The position numbers and the translations under genes were made by a program. The notes under the pieces are model-generated. The model did not search any database and was not told where the DNA came from. It saw only the letters and a list, made by a program, of their open reading frames with translations. 64,000 nucleotides of DNA from Bdellovibrio bacteriovorus HD100 (GTDB lineage Bacteria; Bdellovibrionota; Bdellovibrionia; Bdellovibrionales; Bdellovibrionaceae), in contig NC_005363.1 of the NCBI RefSeq assembly GCF_000196175.1, positions 3,224,001 to 3,288,000 of the forward strand. The letters run 5' to 3'. Positions 44,055 through 57,234 of this stretch are shown piece after piece (the stretch's first letter is position 1; every line of letters starts with the position of its first letter).

Positions 44055-44089
44055 GATCCCGGGTTGCCCAGCAATCCGGGATTTTTTTT
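44055..44089 (+). terminator. Rho-independent terminator
   Basis: ATCCCGG / CCGGGAT hairpin with a run of eight T's, after the 657-aa gene and reaching the stop of the convergent lipoprotein gene. Confidence 0.8.
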
Positions 44090-47000
44090 AGAATGAATCC
44101 ACAAAGACTTCCAGCACTTGGGAGTTGTAGGCATCACTGGAGAACAGAACCCGGTTGGAGGTCGCCATCACACTGTTCCAGACCCCGGTATTCCCCTGCA
44201 GACCCGGCATGTGATTCTTCAGACCCGTGCCATCACCTTTGACTGAATAAAGGCTTAAGACACCGTCCTTGTCATTATCCGCCCGGAAGAACACACGATC
44301 CGCCAACTCTGACACAAAGGTGTCATAGATATCCGCAAAGGAGTTCAGTGTGACAAGCTTGCGACTTTCCGTCCCGTCCCACTTCACCGCAAAGAGATCC
44401 CATTTGCCCACGGTTTCGATCAAACCGGTGTACACAATGGTTTTGTTGGCATCATTCAGGAACTTCACGGATGTCCCGTTGTTGGCATTCACCTGACCAC
44501 CGGCAATCGGATTCTGACTGATTTTTCGAATATCCGAGCCATCCAGGTTCATACTGTACAGCTCATAGATGTCCGGCGAGGACTCACTCAGTGTGATCAG
44601 GCGTTTGTTCGCCCCTTCCGTCAGCGTCTGATACAAAGACGTGTGCGAAGTCGCCGGAAGACCTGGGTTGATATCGAACTGAACCTGATCAGAAAGGCGG
44701 AAAGTTTTAAGTGATGTGCGTCCGTTGGTCACAAAGTCCCCCGGGATGACAGCGTACTCGGAATCCTCAGAGAATCTGCAACCAGAACCCATGCGAGTGG
44801 GGTCCACCCCTTGTGCAGCCATATAGTTCACCCCGGCGGGATTGGCAGCTGATGCGACTTTCACATCGTAAACACCACTAACAGAAGTGATACCCCAGTA
44901 ACACACCCACTGCGAATCCGGGGAAATCACAAAACTTGCCAGATCGTAACCAGCAGCAATCACGCTGTTAATGCGAGTCACGGTGCCGCTTCCATCCACG
45001 GCCACTTTGCCGATTTCCCACTTTGCATCAATGTCATAGTCCCAGCGAACCACGATGTAACTGCCATCAGGCGCCACATCCCAGTCCGTATAAATCACTG
45101 GATGAGCAAAGTCCGGCGTGATTTTCACCGCACCTGTTCCATCCAGATTCACCCGGTGTATTTCAGGAATCGTGTCCACGGTGATGTCACCAATATAATA
45201 AAGCTTCTGAGTCGCTTCATTGAACTTAAAGGCCGTAATCGCACCGTTCGGATTGGTGATCGGAACGCTCACTTTAACAGGTGCCGCTCCATTGCTGTTA
45301 CCCACATATAGTTCCTGCAAACCAGAAGTGTCCTGATCTGCCAAATAGATAATCTTGGTTCCATCATCTGTAAATGCAAAGGTCGTCAGTTTACCGCCCC
45401 CTGCAGGATAGGCCTTAGTCACACGCACCAAGTTGCTGCCATTCGGGTCTGAGGCATAAAGGTGCATTTCTGCATCCACCTCAGGATTTCCCCGGAAAGC
45501 AACTTTGGTTCCGCTAGCAGGTGGAGGCACAAAGAAATAATCCCCGGAGCGAATCAGCGGCATATTGATTTTCACGGAGGAACTGACCGCAAGATTCAAG
45601 CTCGCCCGGTACAGACCGTTAACGGCTTCAATATTGTCGTCAGCGAGCATCATCACTGTGCTGCGATCCCAATCGAAGAAGTACTGCAGGTTGCCCGTCA
45701 GCACATCACCATCAAGATTGCTGATCACCGGGCTCAACCTGCGATTGGAACTGCCGTCCACGGCTGAAATATACATTTCGTATTTTCCATCAACTTCCAG
45801 ATCAGCGATATAGGCGACACGGTCCCCAGAAGGACTGACTTCCAGCACCGGATAGTTTCGCACCACTGAGGCTTGCGCCTGTGGGGTCAATAAAACCGGC
45901 GTTCCGCTGCCATCGGCATTTATGGCAAGCAAATCATATTTCATCTCTCCCACCGCCGGCGGCGAGATCCCACTTACGTCGGCCTGCCAGATAATTTTTT
46001 GCCCGTTGCCGGTGAAGTTGATCGTATTTTTCTCAATCCCCTGGTGTCCCCCATTTCGCACGACCGTTGTCGTTGATAGGCGTAGCAATCCAGTTCCATC
46101 CGGGTTGGCAATATGCAGATCAAAGCGATAAGAACTGATGGCTTGGGTGAAAGCGATTTTGGAGGAATCCGGCGACCAGACAAAGGATCCGACATCCATT
46201 GTGGTAGCGGTACAAGGCACAGTCACCCGGTTGTCTGTTCGAGCCTGCAGGTCATAGACCCACATCTCCAGGCATGTCGCCATCCCACGATCAATTCGGT
46301 AGGCCACATAGCGGGAGTTCGGACTGATTTCAGCCATCGCCGACACTCCATTAAATGACGTCGCCGAAACGTCAATCACTTCACCAGTCACCAACGATAC
46401 CGCACCAAGAGCCATACCAACATTATTGAAAGTTTTGTTTTCGCGATAGACGACCCATTTGCTGTCCGCGCTGATGATATAGTCTGACTGCACCGCCTCG
46501 TTGGTTGCCATTGCAGGCCCCAGACGACGCAGGTTCGTGCCATTCACATTCACAGCATACAAGTTGATCGCTTCATCAATGTCCTTGTCCATGCGGAACA
46601 CAACTGTCGATCCATCCGGCGATATTCTAAATTCGCGCACGTCTCCGCCAGCCACCATCGCGCCATTCAGTTTCGTCTGCGCCCCAGTTAAAACATTGAT
46701 TGCATACAAATTAAATTCATTGTCTGTCGGCCCCACGTCTCCGATGGCAATGACCGTGTTCTGATCCGGCGTCAGAGCATAAGTAGTAACACCCCCGGTG
46801 GGATTGACCGAAGTTGGACCCATCAACACACGATCACCGCTGCCGTCGATTTTCACAGAATGCAGCTCTTTCAATTGCACACGTCCAATTGTGAATCGCA
46901 CATAAAGAGCACGGCTGTGCTTGGGAACAGGCGTGATCGCGGAGGTCTGATCCAAGCCCCACTGCCCGGACATCGGATTGATTCGTGTCAAACCTGTGCC

Positions 47001-47807
47001 ATCAAAGTTCACAAGACCCAAATCCACCATGTCATCGTTGCGCAAAGGTGACGACAACAGCACCCGACCGGAATCCCCGTATTGCGCGATCTGACGAACC
47101 GCCGGATAACCGGTAGAAGTCACATCCGGACTGATCTTCTGCCACTGCGGATAACGAATCGTCACAGATTTGGTTTCAGAGATATTTCCTGCCGTATCGA
47201 AATGCTGAATGTAGAAATCAATGGAACTTGCCGTCTGGGCGGAAAGATCCATGCGCAGCTCCCACTGATGCAAAGCCGAGCACACCAGGAAATGTTCCGA
47301 TGGCAGGGACGTCACAACCTTCACCAGATTCAGAGCATCCGAACAGGCCCCGGTGATCGGATAGTTCGCACGCAGTGAAGACGCCGGATAGTTGTCAGCA
47401 TTGTCCGGTGCGTTTACTGTCACTGTCGGCGGAGTCAGATCCACAAGAACTGTTTTTGTATCAAGAGAGGTTCTTTTCAATTCAGTTTCATTTTGTGAAA
47501 CCGTCATTTGGATCTCGCCCTCGCTCAGTCCGTCCAGATCCAGCACAACCTCAAAAGTTTTAGAGGCATCACAAATGCCTTCATAAGTGCCACGCCCTTC
47601 CAGCGTGATCTGCACAGGTTCACCCACATGCTGACACGAACCCTTGATAGCGTAAGAACGAATATTGGAGGAATTAATGGCCTTGTTGCTTTCATCCAAA
47701 ACGATGAACAACTGATTACGGCTGGTCAGATCCTCAAGATTAGCATCAAGGGAACAACCCGTGAAAATGAATATCGCCGCAAGGACGTACAGGATATGCA
47801 ATACCAT
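44088..47807 (-). CDS. Giant TolB/WD40-like beta-propeller lipoprotein, 1239 aa
   Basis: ATG 47807 opens a lipoprotein signal with lipobox IFTGCS; the frame runs open another 86 codons upstream without a signal. Two Ig-like domains come first (RSYAIKGSCQHVGEPVQITLEG; LTPPTVTVNAPDNADNYP). Then come about twenty TolB/DPP-like blades with repeats of the type ISPDGSTVVFRMD, LYAVNVNGTNLRRLG, VSPSGDRVAYIADLEVDGKYEMY. It probably forms two or more surface or periplasmic propellers for protein binding. Ligand unknown. No clear Shine-Dalgarno is seen at the chosen start. Confidence 0.85.
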   Translation of the reverse strand: MVLHILYVLAAIFIFTGCSLDANLEDLTSRNQLFIVLDESNKAINSSNIRSYAIKGSCQHVGEPVQITLEGRGTYEGICDASKTFEVVLDLDGLSEGEIQMTVSQNETELKRTSLDTKTVLVDLTPPTVTVNAPDNADNYPASSLRANYPITGACSDALNLVKVVTSLPSEHFLVCSALHQWELRMDLSAQTASSIDFYIQHFDTAGNISETKSVTIRYPQWQKISPDVTSTGYPAVRQIAQYGDSGRVLLSSPLRNDDMVDLGLVNFDGTGLTRINPMSGQWGLDQTSAITPVPKHSRALYVRFTIGRVQLKELHSVKIDGSGDRVLMGPTSVNPTGGVTTYALTPDQNTVIAIGDVGPTDNEFNLYAINVLTGAQTKLNGAMVAGGDVREFRISPDGSTVVFRMDKDIDEAINLYAVNVNGTNLRRLGPAMATNEAVQSDYIISADSKWVVYRENKTFNNVGMALGAVSLVTGEVIDVSATSFNGVSAMAEISPNSRYVAYRIDRGMATCLEMWVYDLQARTDNRVTVPCTATTMDVGSFVWSPDSSKIAFTQAISSYRFDLHIANPDGTGLLRLSTTTVVRNGGHQGIEKNTINFTGNGQKIIWQADVSGISPPAVGEMKYDLLAINADGSGTPVLLTPQAQASVVRNYPVLEVSPSGDRVAYIADLEVDGKYEMYISAVDGSSNRRLSPVISNLDGDVLTGNLQYFFDWDRSTVMMLADDNIEAVNGLYRASLNLAVSSSVKINMPLIRSGDYFFVPPPASGTKVAFRGNPEVDAEMHLYASDPNGSNLVRVTKAYPAGGGKLTTFAFTDDGTKIIYLADQDTSGLQELYVGNSNGAAPVKVSVPITNPNGAITAFKFNEATQKLYYIGDITVDTIPEIHRVNLDGTGAVKITPDFAHPVIYTDWDVAPDGSYIVVRWDYDIDAKWEIGKVAVDGSGTVTRINSVIAAGYDLASFVISPDSQWVCYWGITSVSGVYDVKVASAANPAGVNYMAAQGVDPTRMGSGCRFSEDSEYAVIPGDFVTNGRTSLKTFRLSDQVQFDINPGLPATSHTSLYQTLTEGANKRLITLSESSPDIYELYSMNLDGSDIRKISQNPIAGGQVNANNGTSVKFLNDANKTIVYTGLIETVGKWDLFAVKWDGTESRKLVTLNSFADIYDTFVSELADRVFFRADNDKDGVLSLYSVKGDGTGLKNHMPGLQGNTGVWNSVMATSNRVLFSSDAYNSQVLEVFVDSF

Positions 47808-48138
47808 ACAGAGTTTATCGGAACCCTTAGAGTCCCGCTGGAGGATTTTTCCTCTGAAAATCCCCTTTTTTCCGTATTCTGGTTCCATACCGAGCAGATC
47901 TGAGAATATGAAACTTTCCACTCGGAAAAGCATGAGTTTCCTTCGACAAACAGAGCTCAGCTTATGAGTTTCCTCGTCTTTGCCGCCAGCCAAGAAACCC
48001 AGGGACCTTTTAGACACCCCCTGAAATAGTTTCCTTTTGCCCCCAGCTCCTTCGAAAGAGGACAAAAATACACCACCCTATGCATTCCTAAGTATATGAA
48101 ATTACTTAATTAATTTAATGCCTTGTTGTGTCTCATTG
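47808..48138. other. Divergent intergenic/leader region, 331 bp
   Basis: Lies between the propeller lipoprotein (-) and the radical SAM operon (+). Direct repeats ATGAGTTTCC occur at 47932-47941 and 47964-47973, with a shorter TAGTTTCC at 48027-48034. The right end is AT-rich and contains an inverted repeat AAATTA-N6-TAATTT (48099-48116). The minus-strand leader of the lipoprotein may be up to about 270 nt; I could not match it to a riboswitch class. Confidence 0.4.
48099..48116. promoter_or_regulatory. AT-rich inverted repeat upstream of the sigma-54 element
   Basis: AAATTA-N6-TAATTT centred about 32 bp upstream of the -24 element. Candidate binding site for the operon's own NtrC-type regulator or an IHF-type bending protein. 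Confidence 0.3.
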
Positions 48139-48154
48139 TGGAACGCTTATTGCA
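48139..48154 (+). promoter_or_regulatory. Near-consensus sigma-54 (-24/-12) promoter
   Basis: TGGAACG-CTTA-TTGCA compared with TGGCACG-N4-TTGCW: 11 of 12 defined positions match and the GG and GC are exactly ten bases apart. The predicted transcription start is about 48165, only a few bases before ATG 48168, so the maturase mRNA would be almost leaderless, or translation starts at GTG 48195. The operon encodes a sigma-54 activator. Confidence 0.6.
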
Positions 48155-48167
48155 TCATCCAAGGACG

Positions 48168-49451
48168 ATGGAACAAAGACGATTTAAAGACATTGTGGCA
48201 TTCAAATGGAACCAGGGAGCTCCCTTGGCTTTCCACGCCCGCAATCTGGAAATCGCCGAGATCTCTGAAGACACCTGGAACCAGATGAGCCAGGAATCCT
48301 TGGGTGCTGACGATGCCGCCGTGGCGCTGAAAAACTGGGAGCTGGAAAACAGCCCTGACGTCAAATCCGGTCGCCTCTCTGTCGGCATTCGCAGCCTGAC
48401 CATCAACGTGACCCAGATCTGCAACTTGAAATGCACGTACTGCGCCGCTGGTGGTGACGGCACTTATGGCTCCGCACAAACCAAAATCAACGTTGAAAAA
48501 ACTTTGCCGCAATTGAAGTTCTTCCTGGAGCGTGTTCCTACCGGTGGCAGATTCAACATCACCTTCCTGGGTGGCGAACCATTATTGTATCCGGATGGCA
48601 TTCAAGAGATCGGCAACTATGTTCGCCTGATGACCGCGGGTCAGAATGTTCAGGCTTCCTTTTCGATTGTGACCAACGGCACCTTGATCAATGAAAAGAC
48701 CCTGAAGGTGCTGACTTCGCTAAAAACCAACATCACTGTCAGCCTGGACGGCCCGGCAGAAACCAACGACAAGGCCCGCCCTTCCAAAGACGGTCGCGGC
48801 AGCACTTCTTTGGTCGTTGAAGGCCTGAAGCAGCTTTCTGCCGTTCGTGAATCCCTGGGGCGTTTGACTTTGCACGGTGTTTTCAACCGCGAAAACCTGG
48901 AACTGGTGAAAGCGTATGAGTTCTACAAAACTCTGAATGCCGATCGCTATGAATTCACCTATTCCGTGGAAGAAAACGACGACGCAAGCAACAAGCTGTT
49001 CGTCGATCAGATGAATCAGATCGCTGACATGGCTTACAAAGCCGGCGGCGAGGAAGAGCTTCGCAAAGTGGGCATCTTCGACCAGTACTTCAATGCTCTG
49101 GACAATCAGCAGCAGACGGAAAACTTCTGCGGCTCTGGCAAATCCTTCCTGGTGATGGACGCCAAAAACAACCTGTTCACCTGCCCATGGGAAGTGGGGA
49201 ACAAGGAAGAACAAGTCGGACAAGGCACAGACGTTGACTTTGCCCGCATGGAGGCCGAACAGGCGCCATTGATTGAAAAAAACAACTGCCAAAGCTGCTG
49301 GGCGCGATTCCTGTGCGGTGGCGGCTGCATGTTCATCCACAAGAAAGGCACGGGCAGCAAGCACCAAAAGGACGGTCAGTTCTGCTTCCGCACGCGCAGC
49401 TTGATTGGAACCACTTTTATGTACTATAAATTAAGCAGGGCCACCTGCTAG
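48168..49451 (+). CDS. Radical SAM/SPASM peptide-modifying enzyme (putative RiPP maturase)
   Basis: 427 residues from ATG 48168. The N-terminal 80 residues have a FKWNQGAPLAFHARNLEIAEIS segment like the peptide-recognition start of SPASM enzymes. The radical SAM motif CNLKCTYC is at residues 85-92, followed by FLGGEPLLYPDG and TNGTLI. The C-terminal SPASM domain has FCGSGKSFLVMDAKNNLFTCPW and CQSCWARFLCGGGC (CX2CX5CX3C), plus later Cys residues, giving ligands for two auxiliary Fe-S clusters. SPASM enzymes of this kind form thioether, C-C or other crosslinks in ribosomal peptides. A 38-codon precursor-like gene begins nine bases after its stop. Upstream in-frame TTG and GTG codons exist, so the start is uncertain. 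Confidence 0.9.
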   Translation: MEQRRFKDIVAFKWNQGAPLAFHARNLEIAEISEDTWNQMSQESLGADDAAVALKNWELENSPDVKSGRLSVGIRSLTINVTQICNLKCTYCAAGGDGTYGSAQTKINVEKTLPQLKFFLERVPTGGRFNITFLGGEPLLYPDGIQEIGNYVRLMTAGQNVQASFSIVTNGTLINEKTLKVLTSLKTNITVSLDGPAETNDKARPSKDGRGSTSLVVEGLKQLSAVRESLGRLTLHGVFNRENLELVKAYEFYKTLNADRYEFTYSVEENDDASNKLFVDQMNQIADMAYKAGGEEELRKVGIFDQYFNALDNQQQTENFCGSGKSFLVMDAKNNLFTCPWEVGNKEEQVGQGTDVDFARMEAEQAPLIEKNNCQSCWARFLCGGGCMFIHKKGTGSKHQKDGQFCFRTRSLIGTTFMYYKLSRATC

Positions 49452-49459
49452 AGGAAACT

Positions 49460-49576
49460 ATGACACAGCAAACACATATCAAAAAAATCAAACCTCTGAA
49501 GCCCAAACCTTCATCCACTACCAAGCTGGCCGGTCCTGGCGGCGGTACTGGCGAAGGCTGCATCCCGGTTCGCTAA
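49460..49576 (+). CDS. Putative RiPP precursor peptide, 38 aa, single Cys
   Basis: Missed by size-limited gene calling but well supported: GAGG five bases before the ATG overlaps the stop region of the radical SAM gene, and it has no competing frame. The first 22 residues form a Lys/Pro/Thr-rich leader (with KPLKPKP), and the tail AGPGGGTGEGCIPVR holds one Cys at residue 34 and six Gly. The short basic leader plus Gly-rich tail next to a SPASM enzyme is the classic precursor arrangement. It does not match PqqA, MftA or other precursors I know. Which residue is modified and whether the leader is removed (possibly near AG-P) are inference. Confidence 0.75.
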   Translation: MTQQTHIKKIKPLKPKPSSTTKLAGPGGGTGEGCIPVR

Positions 49577-49608: not shown

Positions 49609-51489
49609 ATGACTCTTCCTCCCTCCCTTGAAGAGAATTCCGGAGCCTCCAAAAGACGCTCCTACCAGGCGCTTGCGCTGCGAATGTTGTTCGCAGTGGG
49701 GATTTCTTTTTTCATCGGCCAGACCAACCTGGATTATCTTGAGTCCTATCTTTACGATCTGCGCGTTCGCACGAAAGTCATCAACTCCACCTCCGGCAAT
49801 GTCGAGCTGATCTATATCACTCCACAGACTGTTCAGTTCTATAAAGGTTATCCTTCCGCCACGGAACAGATCGCCCTTTTGAAGGCCCTGAACAACAGCG
49901 GCGCCAAAGCCATCGCCTATGACTTTGCCTTTGACGAGGTTCCTGGAACGACTGACGAAAAGAACGCGTGGGAATCCGCCATTGTTTCTTCCCCGCACGT
50001 CTTTGTCGCCGGTCGCACAACTCCCATGAAGGGTGAAGAAAACCAGATGTTCCTGCAGGAGCCTTTGGAGCAGATCTCCATTTCTCCGGCACCCAAAACC
50101 ACCGACCTTGTGAACTTTGCCAAAGACGGCGTCACCCGCCGTATGATCCTGACCTATCAGGACCGCCCGATGCTGCCTGTACGTCTGGCAAGTCTGGTGA
50201 ATCCGCAGACCATGCAGGTGGAAAACATCCGCGGTCAGTTTGATTTCTATGGCACCGATCAAGCCTACATTGATTTCCATCCGGCGCGCTCTTATCCAGC
50301 GACTTCATTTGAATCTATTCTTAAAGGCGAGGCTGATTTGTCCCGCTTCAAGGACAAGATCATTCTGATCGGGACGGATCTGGGCTTGAACGAAGCTGAA
50401 TACATCATGACTCCTTTCAGCCGTGAAGTGACGGCCATGACCCGCATTGAAATGCAGGCCAACGTCATCGACACATTGATCAAGAACTCCGGCCCGGTGA
50501 AAGTCTCTGGCTATTTAAGCTGGTTGTTCATTTTGGCGGCGTCTATTCTGACCACTCAGGTCGTGCTGACGATGAAACCAACACGCGGTCTGATCGTTCT
50601 GGGCGCAACCCTGTTGGGGTTTGTTGTTCTGTGTGCGGGCGCTTACTGGGGCTTCGGACTGTGGCTGCCAATGGCCGCCCCACTATTGACGATCTTCCTG
50701 TGTTATTATTTCTTCATCCCTTACCGCCTGATCGTCGAAAACCGCCGCAGCTGGGAATACTATCAGAAGAACAAGCTGCTCAGTCAGGTGGAAGAACTTA
50801 AAACCAACTTCATTTCCATGATGTCCCATGACCTGAAAACACCGATTGCACGCATCCAGGGCATGACAGACGTGATTTTGACCGACTCGGTGGCCCTCAG
50901 CAACCAGCAGCGCGAGGCCGTGGACACTATCAAACATTCCTCAGATGATTTATTGAAGTTCATCAACGCCATCTTAAGCTACGGTAAAATCGAAAGCCAG
51001 GGCGTGCAGCTGAACATGCAAAGCAAGGACATCAATAACCTTCTGCAAGAGGTTATTCGCAAGCACGAGTTTCTGGCCAGGGTGAAACGCATTCAGATCG
51101 TGTCGGAACTGGAGCCCATGTTCCCGGTTCAGGTCGACCCTGAACTGATGAAACAGGTGTTCTCGAACCTGGTGGAAAACGCCATCAAATACAGCCCGGA
51201 AGACACGAAAATCATGGTCAGCAGCGAGGAAACACCCTCCAAGGTGATCGTTCAGGTGGCCGACCAGGGGCCGGGCATCCCGCAGGATGAATTGCAGAAT
51301 ATCTTTATGAAGTTCTTCAGATCGAAAAACGTCAAATCCTCCCCTATCAAGGGTTCGGGGTTGGGCCTGTATCTGGCGAAATACTTCACGGAATTACATC
51401 ACGGAAACATTTTTGTAGAATCTTCCCATGGTAATGGTTCCACATTTACGGTAGAACTACCCATCGAACAAGGGGGCACTCATGCTTAA
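49609..51489 (+). CDS. CHASE2-domain sensor histidine kinase
   Basis: 626 residues. One N-terminal membrane helix (residues about 25-42), an extracytoplasmic CHASE2 domain to about residue 290 (LYDLRVRTK, NSGAKAIAYDFAFDE, FKDKIILIGTDLG, MTRIEMQANVIDTLI), three more helices to about 375, then HisKA (FISMMSHDLKTPIARIQG, His near 408) and a HATPase domain (NLVENAIKYSPED, DQGPGIP, GSGLGLYLA). It senses an external signal and would phosphorylate the overlapping response regulator. It starts 32 bases after the precursor gene, so the peptide itself is a plausible ligand, though this is unproven. Confidence 0.95.
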   Translation: MTLPPSLEENSGASKRRSYQALALRMLFAVGISFFIGQTNLDYLESYLYDLRVRTKVINSTSGNVELIYITPQTVQFYKGYPSATEQIALLKALNNSGAKAIAYDFAFDEVPGTTDEKNAWESAIVSSPHVFVAGRTTPMKGEENQMFLQEPLEQISISPAPKTTDLVNFAKDGVTRRMILTYQDRPMLPVRLASLVNPQTMQVENIRGQFDFYGTDQAYIDFHPARSYPATSFESILKGEADLSRFKDKIILIGTDLGLNEAEYIMTPFSREVTAMTRIEMQANVIDTLIKNSGPVKVSGYLSWLFILAASILTTQVVLTMKPTRGLIVLGATLLGFVVLCAGAYWGFGLWLPMAAPLLTIFLCYYFFIPYRLIVENRRSWEYYQKNKLLSQVEELKTNFISMMSHDLKTPIARIQGMTDVILTDSVALSNQQREAVDTIKHSSDDLLKFINAILSYGKIESQGVQLNMQSKDINNLLQEVIRKHEFLARVKRIQIVSELEPMFPVQVDPELMKQVFSNLVENAIKYSPEDTKIMVSSEETPSKVIVQVADQGPGIPQDELQNIFMKFFRSKNVKSSPIKGSGLGLYLAKYFTELHHGNIFVESSHGNGSTFTVELPIEQGGTHA

Positions 51490-53005
51490 GGTTTTGGTTG
51501 TAGACGATGATCAGGGCTTAAGACTTTCGGTAAAGTCCGCACTTGCGGTTACTCAGCGCTTCGAAGTTGATGAAGCTTTCGATGGCGTGAATGCCATGGA
51601 GAAAGTGAAAAACGGCGACAAGAAGTACGACCTTGTTCTGCTTGATGTCGACATGCCTCGCATGAACGGCCTTGAAGCCCTTCGCCAGATCAAAGAATTC
51701 GATCCAGGCATCATCGTGATCATCATGACCGCCCACGCGACCTTTGAGTCTGCCATTCAGGCAGTCAAAGACGGCGCTTACAACTATCTGCAGAAACCAG
51801 TGGCGGGTGATGATCTGCTGGCTTTGATCGACAAAGCCGTGAACGCCCACAATCTTATTTCCAATATCGCAGCCTCTGCCCCCGTGATGGTGGAAGAAGG
51901 CCGCAAGATCATCGGCCACACATCCCAGATGCAGAAGGTGTTCAACATCATCCACCGTCTGGCGAAAGTGGAAACCCCGGTTCTAATCCGTGGTGCTTCC
52001 GGTACGGGTAAAGAACTGGTGGCGAAAGCCATCCACTTCAACTCGGCCCGCAAAGACGAAAAGTTCGTGGCGATCAACTGCTCTGCCATCCCGGAAAATC
52101 TGTTTGAATCAGAATTGTTCGGTCACGAAAAAGGCTCTTTCACCGGCGCTGACCAGCGCAAGATTGGTAAATTCCAATTCGCTGAAGGCGGCACTTTGTT
52201 CCTGGATGAAGTGGGCGACATGCCTCAGCTGATGCAGGTGAAAATCCTGCGTGTCCTTCAGGAAAAACTGTTCACGCCAGTGGGTTCCAACCGTGAATTC
52301 CCAACGAACGTGCGTATCATCGCTGCGACCAACCGTCCTTTGGAGGACATGATCAAGGCCGGCACCTTTCGTGAGGATCTATTCTATCGCCTGAATGTCG
52401 TACCTATATTCCTGCCGGCTTTGGCTGAACGCAAAGACGACATGGAACATATGGTGAACATCTTTATCCGCAAGTTCAACCAGGCCCATGGCAAACGCAT
52501 CAACGGCATTGCACCGGACGCCATGGCGGTTTTGAAAAAACACAGCTGGCCAGGAAACATCCGTGAACTGGAAAACGTGATCGAACACGCTTTCGTTCTG
52601 GAAATGTCCAACATCATCACGATTGCTTCTTTGCCGGAAGCTTTGTTGATCGCGACTGGCACAAACCTGATCGACGTTCCTCCGGTTCAGGAAACCGCTC
52701 AGAACGTGGCGTCTGCGGGCATCAGCTCTGCAGCTCAGGCACACGCTTCTTTGGGTGATGACGAGGACAGCGATGTTGGCGGCATGGACCTGGACGAAGA
52801 AGACGGTGAAATGATCGCTTACTCTGGTGAAAATCTGGATTTCAACGCCCAGAAAGAAGCTTTCGAGAAAGAATTTATTATCAAGGCTCTGAAAACCTTC
52901 CGCGGACGCATCAATCAGACAGCATTGCATGCGAACATTCCAAAGAAGACTCTTCTCAGAAAAATCGAAAAGTACGGCATCATCGCCAAAGACTATTCAA
53001 ACTAG
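51482..53005 (+). CDS. NtrC-family sigma-54-dependent response regulator
   Basis: 507 residues: receiver domain (VLVVDDDQG, phospho-Asp in LLDVDMPR near 57, Lys in LQKPV), AAA+ domain with Walker A GASGTGKE near 170, sigma-54 contact loop GSFTGA near 218 (usual GAFTGA with Ala to Ser), [13 protein letters not shown], and a C-terminal FIS-type helix-turn-helix ([25 protein letters not shown]). A 50-residue acidic insert ([18 protein letters not shown]) separates AAA+ from the DNA-binding domain. It overlaps the kinase gene by eight bases and is presumably its partner; a sigma-54 site precedes the operon. Confidence 0.96.
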
Positions 53006-53037: not shown

Positions 53038-53069
53038 GAACTGCCGGGACCTCCCGGCAGTTCTTTTTT
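53038..53069 (+). terminator. Strong terminator closing the radical SAM/two-component operon
   Basis: GAACTGCCGGGA-CC-TCCCGGCAGTTC perfect 12-base stem with T-run, 33 bases after the regulator stop. Confidence 0.92.
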
Positions 53070-55489: not shown

Positions 55490-56014
55490 CTATTTGCGGG
55501 GAATGTTCTTGCGCAGTTTGCGCTGCAGGCTCTGGCGGTGCAGACCCAGCTTTTTGGCGGCCTGGGTGATATTGCCTTCCGAACTTTGCAGGACATAGTC
55601 GATGTATTCACGCTCCATGCGCGCCAGGGAAATCTCTTCCTCCGGCAGCTCCATGTTTTCAGCCTGATCGCTGAAGGCTCTCAGAATCATCTCTACAGTC
55701 ACTGGCTTGGCGATAAAGTTGTGTGCGCCCAGCTGCATGGCCTTCACTGCGGAAGCCACACTGCCAAAGCCACTCATCATCACGACTTTGACTTGCGGAT
55801 GGCGGGTTTTAAGATCCTTTAAAAGCTCCAGTCCGTTTTCACTGCCCACACGCAAATCCAAAAGCGCCCAGTCGATTTCTGAAAGCTCGGCCACTGATGG
55901 CATATCAGCATAGGCCTTTACCTGAAAGCCGCGTTCCTGAAGTTCTTCGGTCAACACTTCACGCAAACCCTGGTCGTCTTCCACCAGCAAAAGTCGTTTT
56001 CCGTGTTGTTCCAT
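55490..56014 (-). CDS. regA: RegA/PrrA/ActR-type response regulator
   Basis: 174 residues: receiver domain (LLLVEDDQG; phospho-Asp in WALLDLRVGS near 53; Lys in FIAKPV) and a C-terminal FIS-type helix-turn-helix (NITQAAKKLGLHRQSLQRKLRKNIPRK), the compact architecture of the RegA/PrrA redox regulators. The start touches the kinase gene stop, so the pair is coupled. Probable global redox or aerobic/anaerobic control. Confidence 0.9.
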   Translation of the reverse strand: MEQHGKRLLLVEDDQGLREVLTEELQERGFQVKAYADMPSVAELSEIDWALLDLRVGSENGLELLKDLKTRHPQVKVVMMSGFGSVASAVKAMQLGAHNFIAKPVTVEMILRAFSDQAENMELPEEEISLARMEREYIDYVLQSSEGNITQAAKKLGLHRQSLQRKLRKNIPRK

Positions 56015-57234
56015 TATTTTTCCTCCAAAGGCAGACGGATGCGGGACGTAACGCCCTTGCCGCTGACGTTATTGGTGATCACAAAATCCCCGCCACTGGC
56101 CTGAGCCATCATCTGCGCAGAATAAATCCCCAGTCCGTTGCCGGCTTCTTTACCGGTCACAAAGGGTTCACCCAAACGGGACAAAATCTCTGCCGAAATT
56201 CCAGAGCCCTTGTCGACCACTTCCAGCACCGCCCAGGTGTCTTCCTGAAACAGGCGCACGTAAAGTGGACTTTGCGCAGGCGAAGCTTCCAAAGCGTTGT
56301 CCAAAAGATCAAACAATGTCTGGGAAAAAGCCAGTGTTTGCAGACGGCACCACAAAGAATCAATCGTCAGATGGGATTCCACCACGATGCCGGGATTTTC
56401 TTTTTCCCAGACGCCGATCAAATCCTTCACCAGCACGGGAAGCTCCACGCGCTGAAGTTCACTTTGTGACGAACGCGAAAAGACCGATGCCATGTGCTGG
56501 AATACACGAACGCACTCATCCAGTGAGCTTTGAGCTTTTTCAAATTCTTCACGGGCGCCGGAACTTTCATCAGGCAGTTTACGCAAGCCACGCTCCATAC
56601 GAAGCTTCAGGGAATTCATCGGCGTCGCCAACTGGTGAGAGAACCCTGCCGTCAAGGCACCCAACGCTTTCAGGCGGTCGGCCTGATGCTGACGATCCTG
56701 CAAAAGACGAATGCGCTTTTCTTTACGCGCCAGCAGACTTGAAAAATAATGACTGACAAACCAGCTGGCCGTGATCAACACCCACTGGGAAAGAAAACGC
56801 AAAGACAGTTCTGAAAAATCAATACCCACGGTTTTTTGCGAATCCAGCCAGGTTTCATATTGCAACAGTGTCAGCAACAGCAATACGGACGCTCCAAAAA
56901 CGTAAGAAGCTTTCTTGCGCAAAAGCATCCCGCCCAGGAACGAGTGAATACACAAAATGCTGACGAACGGATTGTCAGCGGAACCACTTACGAACAACAA
57001 ACCCGAGGCCGCCAGCAAATCCACCCACAGGTGAACCAGCACTTGTTTTTGCCCATAGTCCTCTTGTTTGGGCCAGATGCTGTGAGCCAGAACATTCAAA
57101 ATGGCCAACAAAGTCAGAACCGCAATGATGTATGGGAAATGCCGCTTGTCCAAATAGCCCCACTTCAAAAGTGGAATGGTTCCAAGCAACAAAGAGACAA
57201 TAGCGATCCAACGAAAACGAATCAGTCCTGGCAT
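56014..57234 (-). CDS. regB: RegB/PrrB-type redox sensor histidine kinase
   Basis: 406 residues with six N-terminal membrane helices and a quinone-binding GGxxNPF-like motif (GSADNPF) in the loop. The H-box is ALGALTAGFSHQLATPMNSL, and a Cys in SSLDECVRVFQ falls where RegB has its redox-active Cys. HATPase motifs are NALEASPA, DKGSGI and GNGLGIY. Together with the adjacent RegA this is a redox two-component system. The assignment rests on the motif pair and the regulator type. Confidence 0.88.
   Translation of the reverse strand: MPGLIRFRWIAIVSLLLGTIPLLKWGYLDKRHFPYIIAVLTLLAILNVLAHSIWPKQEDYGQKQVLVHLWVDLLAASGLLFVSGSADNPFVSILCIHSFLGGMLLRKKASYVFGASVLLLLTLLQYETWLDSQKTVGIDFSELSLRFLSQWVLITASWFVSHYFSSLLARKEKRIRLLQDRQHQADRLKALGALTAGFSHQLATPMNSLKLRMERGLRKLPDESSGAREEFEKAQSSLDECVRVFQHMASVFSRSSQSELQRVELPVLVKDLIGVWEKENPGIVVESHLTIDSLWCRLQTLAFSQTLFDLLDNALEASPAQSPLYVRLFQEDTWAVLEVVDKGSGISAEILSRLGEPFVTGKEAGNGLGIYSAQMMAQASGGDFVITNNVSGKGVTSRIRLPLEEK

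Follow-up and report, generated by a model that had tools for sequence, protein, structure and literature searches.

A role in quorum sensing has been reported for clostridial ranthipeptides derived from SCIFF (Chen 2020, via PMC8102284). Sinorhizobium meliloti and Bradyrhizobium japonicum have leaderless mRNAs, and transcripts that start at the start codon, or within 10 nt of it, are described as well documented in proteobacteria (PMC3616915, PMC4842269). In Bdellovibrio, attack-phase control has been described through FliA and RpoE-like factors. Mapping of 140 attack-phase promoters, with growth-phase starts not covered, gave a FliA motif in two thirds of them and no strong motif in the remaining third or so (Karunker 2013, PMC3627812). 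The literature searched contained no description of the four-gene operon studied here, and the available text of papers naming Bd338x/Bd339x genes does not describe it.

The locus resembles sigma-54/NtrC-type promoters in its GG-N10-GC core, in an activator-like site at about -100 to -130, and in a regulator built of receiver, AAA+ and HTH domains. It differs from them in that the predicted transcript has only 2-6 nt before the start codon in one clade, and in that the activator and kinase genes come last in the operon that the two proteins probably control. It is like the SCIFF and PapB ranthipeptide systems, which are the closest radical SAM/SPASM families by curated model, in having a short precursor beside the maturase. 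Unlike in those systems, the maturase falls well short of the curated score cut-offs, the precursor has a single Cys, close to its C-terminus, and a kinase and a sigma-54 regulator are part of the operon. The clostridial SCIFF-derived ranthipeptides share with it a related maturase class and a peptide linked to signalling (here only presumably), but no co-encoded CHASE2 kinase and sigma-54 regulator are described for them in the available text of PMC8102284. The short distance from predicted start to start codon recalls the rhizobial leaderless mRNAs; the motif reported for the B. japonicum leaderless genes is an extended -10, whereas the promoter here is of the sigma-54 type.

We analyzed a window of 64,000 nucleotides (positions 3224001-3288000) from the genome of Bdellovibrio bacteriovorus HD100, a single contig of 3,782,950 bp that contains rpoN. 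We consider it probable that positions 48139-48154 of this window are a functional sigma-54 promoter, probably the main one, of a four-gene operon that would be switched on by its own encoded regulator, and that the maturase mRNA is near-leaderless. The features are as follows.

48029-48045, minus strand: predicted activator-binding site UAS1, TGGGGGCAAAAGGAAAC, centred about -128 from the predicted start (de novo motif and cross-lineage matrix).
48058-48074, plus strand: possible weaker second activator site UAS2, GAGGACAAAAATACACC, centred about -99 (next distinct matrix hit).
48089-48108, plus strand: dyad TAAGTATATGAAATTACTTA, which lies between the activator site and the promoter and is conserved in some clade members.
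48139-48154, plus strand: sigma-54 (-24/-12) promoter element TGGAACGCTTATTGCA (consensus match and conservation upstream of orthologues).
48165, plus strand: predicted transcription start, 3 nt before ATG 48168.
48168-49451, plus strand: radical SAM/SPASM peptide maturase, 427 aa, from ATG 48168 (Pfam PF04055, 2e-17).
49460-49576, plus strand: 38-aa precursor-like peptide MTQQTHIKKIKPLKPKPSSTTKLAGPGGGTGEGCIPVR, a short ORF in a recurrent place with a lone Cys near the C-terminus.
49609-51489, plus strand: CHASE2 sensor histidine kinase, 626 aa (Pfam CHASE2, HisKA, HATPase_c).
51482-53005, plus strand: NtrC-type response regulator, 507 aa, with receiver, sigma-54 AAA+ and Fis-type HTH domains (Pfam).
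53038-53063, plus strand: strong intrinsic-terminator-like hairpin closing the operon, with an 11-pair stem and a T run.

The layout is compact, and the element at 48139-48154 heads it, probably as main promoter. No Rfam element was found in the operon. Upstream lies a long divergent minus-strand ORF (44088-48065) that, by eye, has a lipoprotein-like segment near its start and beta-propeller-like repeats. Another kinase gene, together with one for a short Fis-HTH response regulator, occupies the minus strand at 55490-57234; we take this pair to resemble the RegB/RegA type.

The first-pass annotation had described 48139-48154 as a near-perfect sigma-54 element beside a gene for a sigma-54 activator. 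Both points and the coordinates were confirmed: GG lies at 48140-48141 and GC at 48152-48153, the spacing is exactly N10, and the only departure from TGGCACG-N4-TTGCW is C to A; the activator gene is the last of the same four-gene operon. Its chance expectation of 0.3 matches per window was too strong. Dinucleotide shuffles gave 0.96 (sd 0.98) such matches, and 2 were seen, so that a lone match to the consensus is not significant. Nor does the position of a lone match prove anything, as had been claimed; conservation upstream of the same gene does.

With C48153, the C of GC, placed at -12, +1 is predicted at about 48165, in agreement with the annotated start site some three bases before ATG 48168. 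Two consequences had been offered, a near-leaderless mRNA or an internal start at GTG 48195, and the comparison of orthologues supports the former. GTG 48195 was rejected because codon 10 is GTA, ATT, GTT or ATA in 12 of the 19 short-leader clade members, because most variation in codons 2-10 among clade orthologues is at the third position, as in coding sequence, and because the N-terminus MExRRxxDI read from ATG 48168 is common to orthologues with ordinary leaders. From these alignments, ATG 48168 is the maturase start codon.

The distance from C(-12) to the start codon was 13-17 nt in 19 loci of the genus and at least 23 nt in 41 others, giving predicted leaders of 2-6 nt and at least 12 nt, respectively. 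The short-leader label showed two changes on the tree; the short leader may have had a single origin. Anti-Shine-Dalgarno pairing was weaker in the short-leader set (mean -1.8 versus -5.3 kcal/mol). Ahead of its own ATG, the peptide gene has GAGGAAACT, a normal Shine-Dalgarno. These observations support, for the predicted start, a near-leaderless maturase mRNA in the HD100-like clade. A title cited in PMC3616915 states that leaderless translation in E. coli is strongly favoured when the start codon is near the 5′ end, and a leader of 2-6 nt may therefore be less efficient than none. The orthologous loci form a natural promoter series: one clade has the sigma-54 element only a few bases from the start codon, and other clades have the same element at a greater distance.

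The maturase mRNA might instead receive a leader with a Shine-Dalgarno sequence from a promoter further upstream, with the sigma-54 start serving mainly the downstream genes. AAGGA immediately precedes ATG 48168, Shine-Dalgarno-like bases that a longer transcript could use are found near the ATG in the window and in loci L153 and L163, and the frame is open for some codons before the ATG. However, no match to a sigma-70-like promoter was found within 47700-48168, about half of the short-leader clade has no appreciable Shine-Dalgarno pairing, and in-frame start codons ahead of the ATG are not common to the clade. We regard such an upstream promoter as unlikely and retain the near-leaderless reading.

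Upstream alignments of the loci showed conserved blocks. Separate motif discovery in the short-leader set and in the remaining loci gave the same core, TGGGGgCAAAAGGAAAC and tGG.GtcAAAagg.aa. A matrix built from sites outside the clade scored above 95% of shuffles in 19 of 19 clade loci, and the clade sites found with it are nearly fixed in place, at -97 to -112 from the promoter. The activator-site matrix was partly hand-picked from a Gibbs run; of the 46 loci outside the clade, training sites among them, only 28 had a hit that passed its threshold. Several clade loci have a matrix hit in about the position of UAS2. L140-L143 belong to another family of the order; their activator-like site, about 40-130 nt 5′ of the sigma-54 element, forms a cleaner dyad, of the type GGTGTCA-N-TGACAC.

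The 17-mer pattern of UAS1 has one exact match in the whole genome. Given this single exact match, the regulator may have the operon as its main target. A wider regulon marked by copies of the upstream elements was rejected: exact copies occur only at the operon, and near matches are at background level (that in L181 lies inside an open frame, and that in L192 is unclear). The dyad at 48089-48108 likewise has no second perfect copy in the genome. This dyad (TAAGTA-N8-TACTTA) was rejected as an additional activator site, since it does not match the motif and is absent from some clade members.

Which activator acts at these sites has to be weighed. The kinase is downstream of the maturase in every locus with enough sequence and the regulator in nearly all, and the regulator HTH is almost invariant across the order. 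Together with the conserved upstream motif and its unique exact site, this invariance is consistent with control of the operon by its own encoded regulator. The promoter could be real and yet be controlled by another NtrC-type activator, with the encoded kinase and regulator acting elsewhere. Binding of the regulator to the upstream site is a prediction from sequence, the genome may encode several sigma-54 activators, and two loci with enough sequence (L115 and L148) gave no regulator hit downstream. This reading is quite unlikely in view of the near-constant presence of the regulator with its almost invariant HTH, and of an upstream motif whose place is nearly fixed in the clade and whose exact match in the genome is unique. 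We therefore prefer control by the encoded regulator.

The case for the promoter itself rests on orthologous maturase loci, of which 66, including the window, were compared. Conservation among strains had been suggested as a check; across species, 57 of 65 Bdellovibrionales loci kept a sigma-54 element of matching quality (score at least 16.2) no more than 150 nt before the maturase. The weights of this score were chosen manually after the published consensus. The controls gave 1 of 65 for the other strand, 0 of 65 for reversed sequences, a mean of about 2.4 of 65 for random windows and a mean of 1.5 for shuffles. When TGG-N-TTGCW was counted by spacer, N10 was found in 52 loci, N11 in 5 and every other spacer in at most 1, and the enrichment was confined to N10 among the spacers compared. 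GG-N10-GC was absent from six loci and present in 60, all of which also have a T two positions ahead of the second G. The loci are related by descent, so these counts are not independent; the element is also found upstream of maturases with identity as low as 35-40%. Because the element is conserved throughout the order in its sequence, strand, position and N10 spacing, and because rpoN is present in the genome and a conserved activator-like site lies upstream, the reading of 48139-48154 as a real, evolutionarily conserved sigma-54 promoter is strongly supported. Chance resemblance, for which one could say that a single match in 64 kb is not unusual, is largely refuted for the family by this order-wide specificity of strand, spacing and position, and its probability for this site is very small.

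The proposed mechanism would be as follows. An extracytoplasmic signal would reach the CHASE2 kinase, which would phosphorylate the regulator. The regulator would bind the upstream site at about -128, and perhaps also that at -99, and would remodel sigma-54 polymerase, giving more transcription of its own operon. The output would include the peptide as well as the maturase, which probably acts on the single Cys of that peptide. Transcripts of the HD100-like clade would begin about 2-6 nt before the maturase AUG, and the maturase would be translated near-leaderless; next to a peptide gene with a Shine-Dalgarno, this could set a low ratio of enzyme to peptide. The peptide might be the signal itself or a product called for by the signal. 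A strictly closed loop would require basal kinase and regulator from a separate promoter. With a defined sigma-54 promoter, an activator-like site and a regulator, a sigma-54 branch becomes directly testable.

For the maturase, the closest NCBIfam model was the PapB ranthipeptide maturase (NF047865; 188.8 bits, below its cut-off of 340), and the SCIFF maturase model (TIGR03974) gave 136.2 bits, below its cut-off of 425. The nearest solved sequence is 5wgg, labelled as a radical SAM domain protein, which we take to be the SCIFF maturase CteB. A short ORF is beside the maturase in nearly all loci; its lone Cys is nearly always followed by xP, and its N-terminal half usually contains an HIKK-KP-like stretch. 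The peptide matched no family in Pfam or NCBIfam. As in RiPP systems with a radical SAM/SPASM maturase, a conserved gene for a short precursor-like peptide accompanies the enzyme. The peptide is probably modified, at its lone Cys, by the maturase; the operon points to an uncharacterised product of this kind in predators.

More speculatively, the loci may represent a new single-Cys RiPP family of Bdellovibrionales, in which the modified peptide would act outside the cytoplasm, be sensed by the CHASE2 kinase and induce its own operon via sigma-54. We find this conceivable but doubtful. If true, a peptide autoinducer loop would be near-universal in the predator's family.

Of 53 good genomes of the family, 51 carry the maturase, so the operon is likely core biology there. 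Among 291 genomes sampled in the phylum, 56 had it, all in the same order. The fairly complete family genomes G016 and G038 had no maturase match, and these may be losses or assembly gaps. In one genome (L168), two different precursor-like peptides are in tandem 3′ of the maturase.
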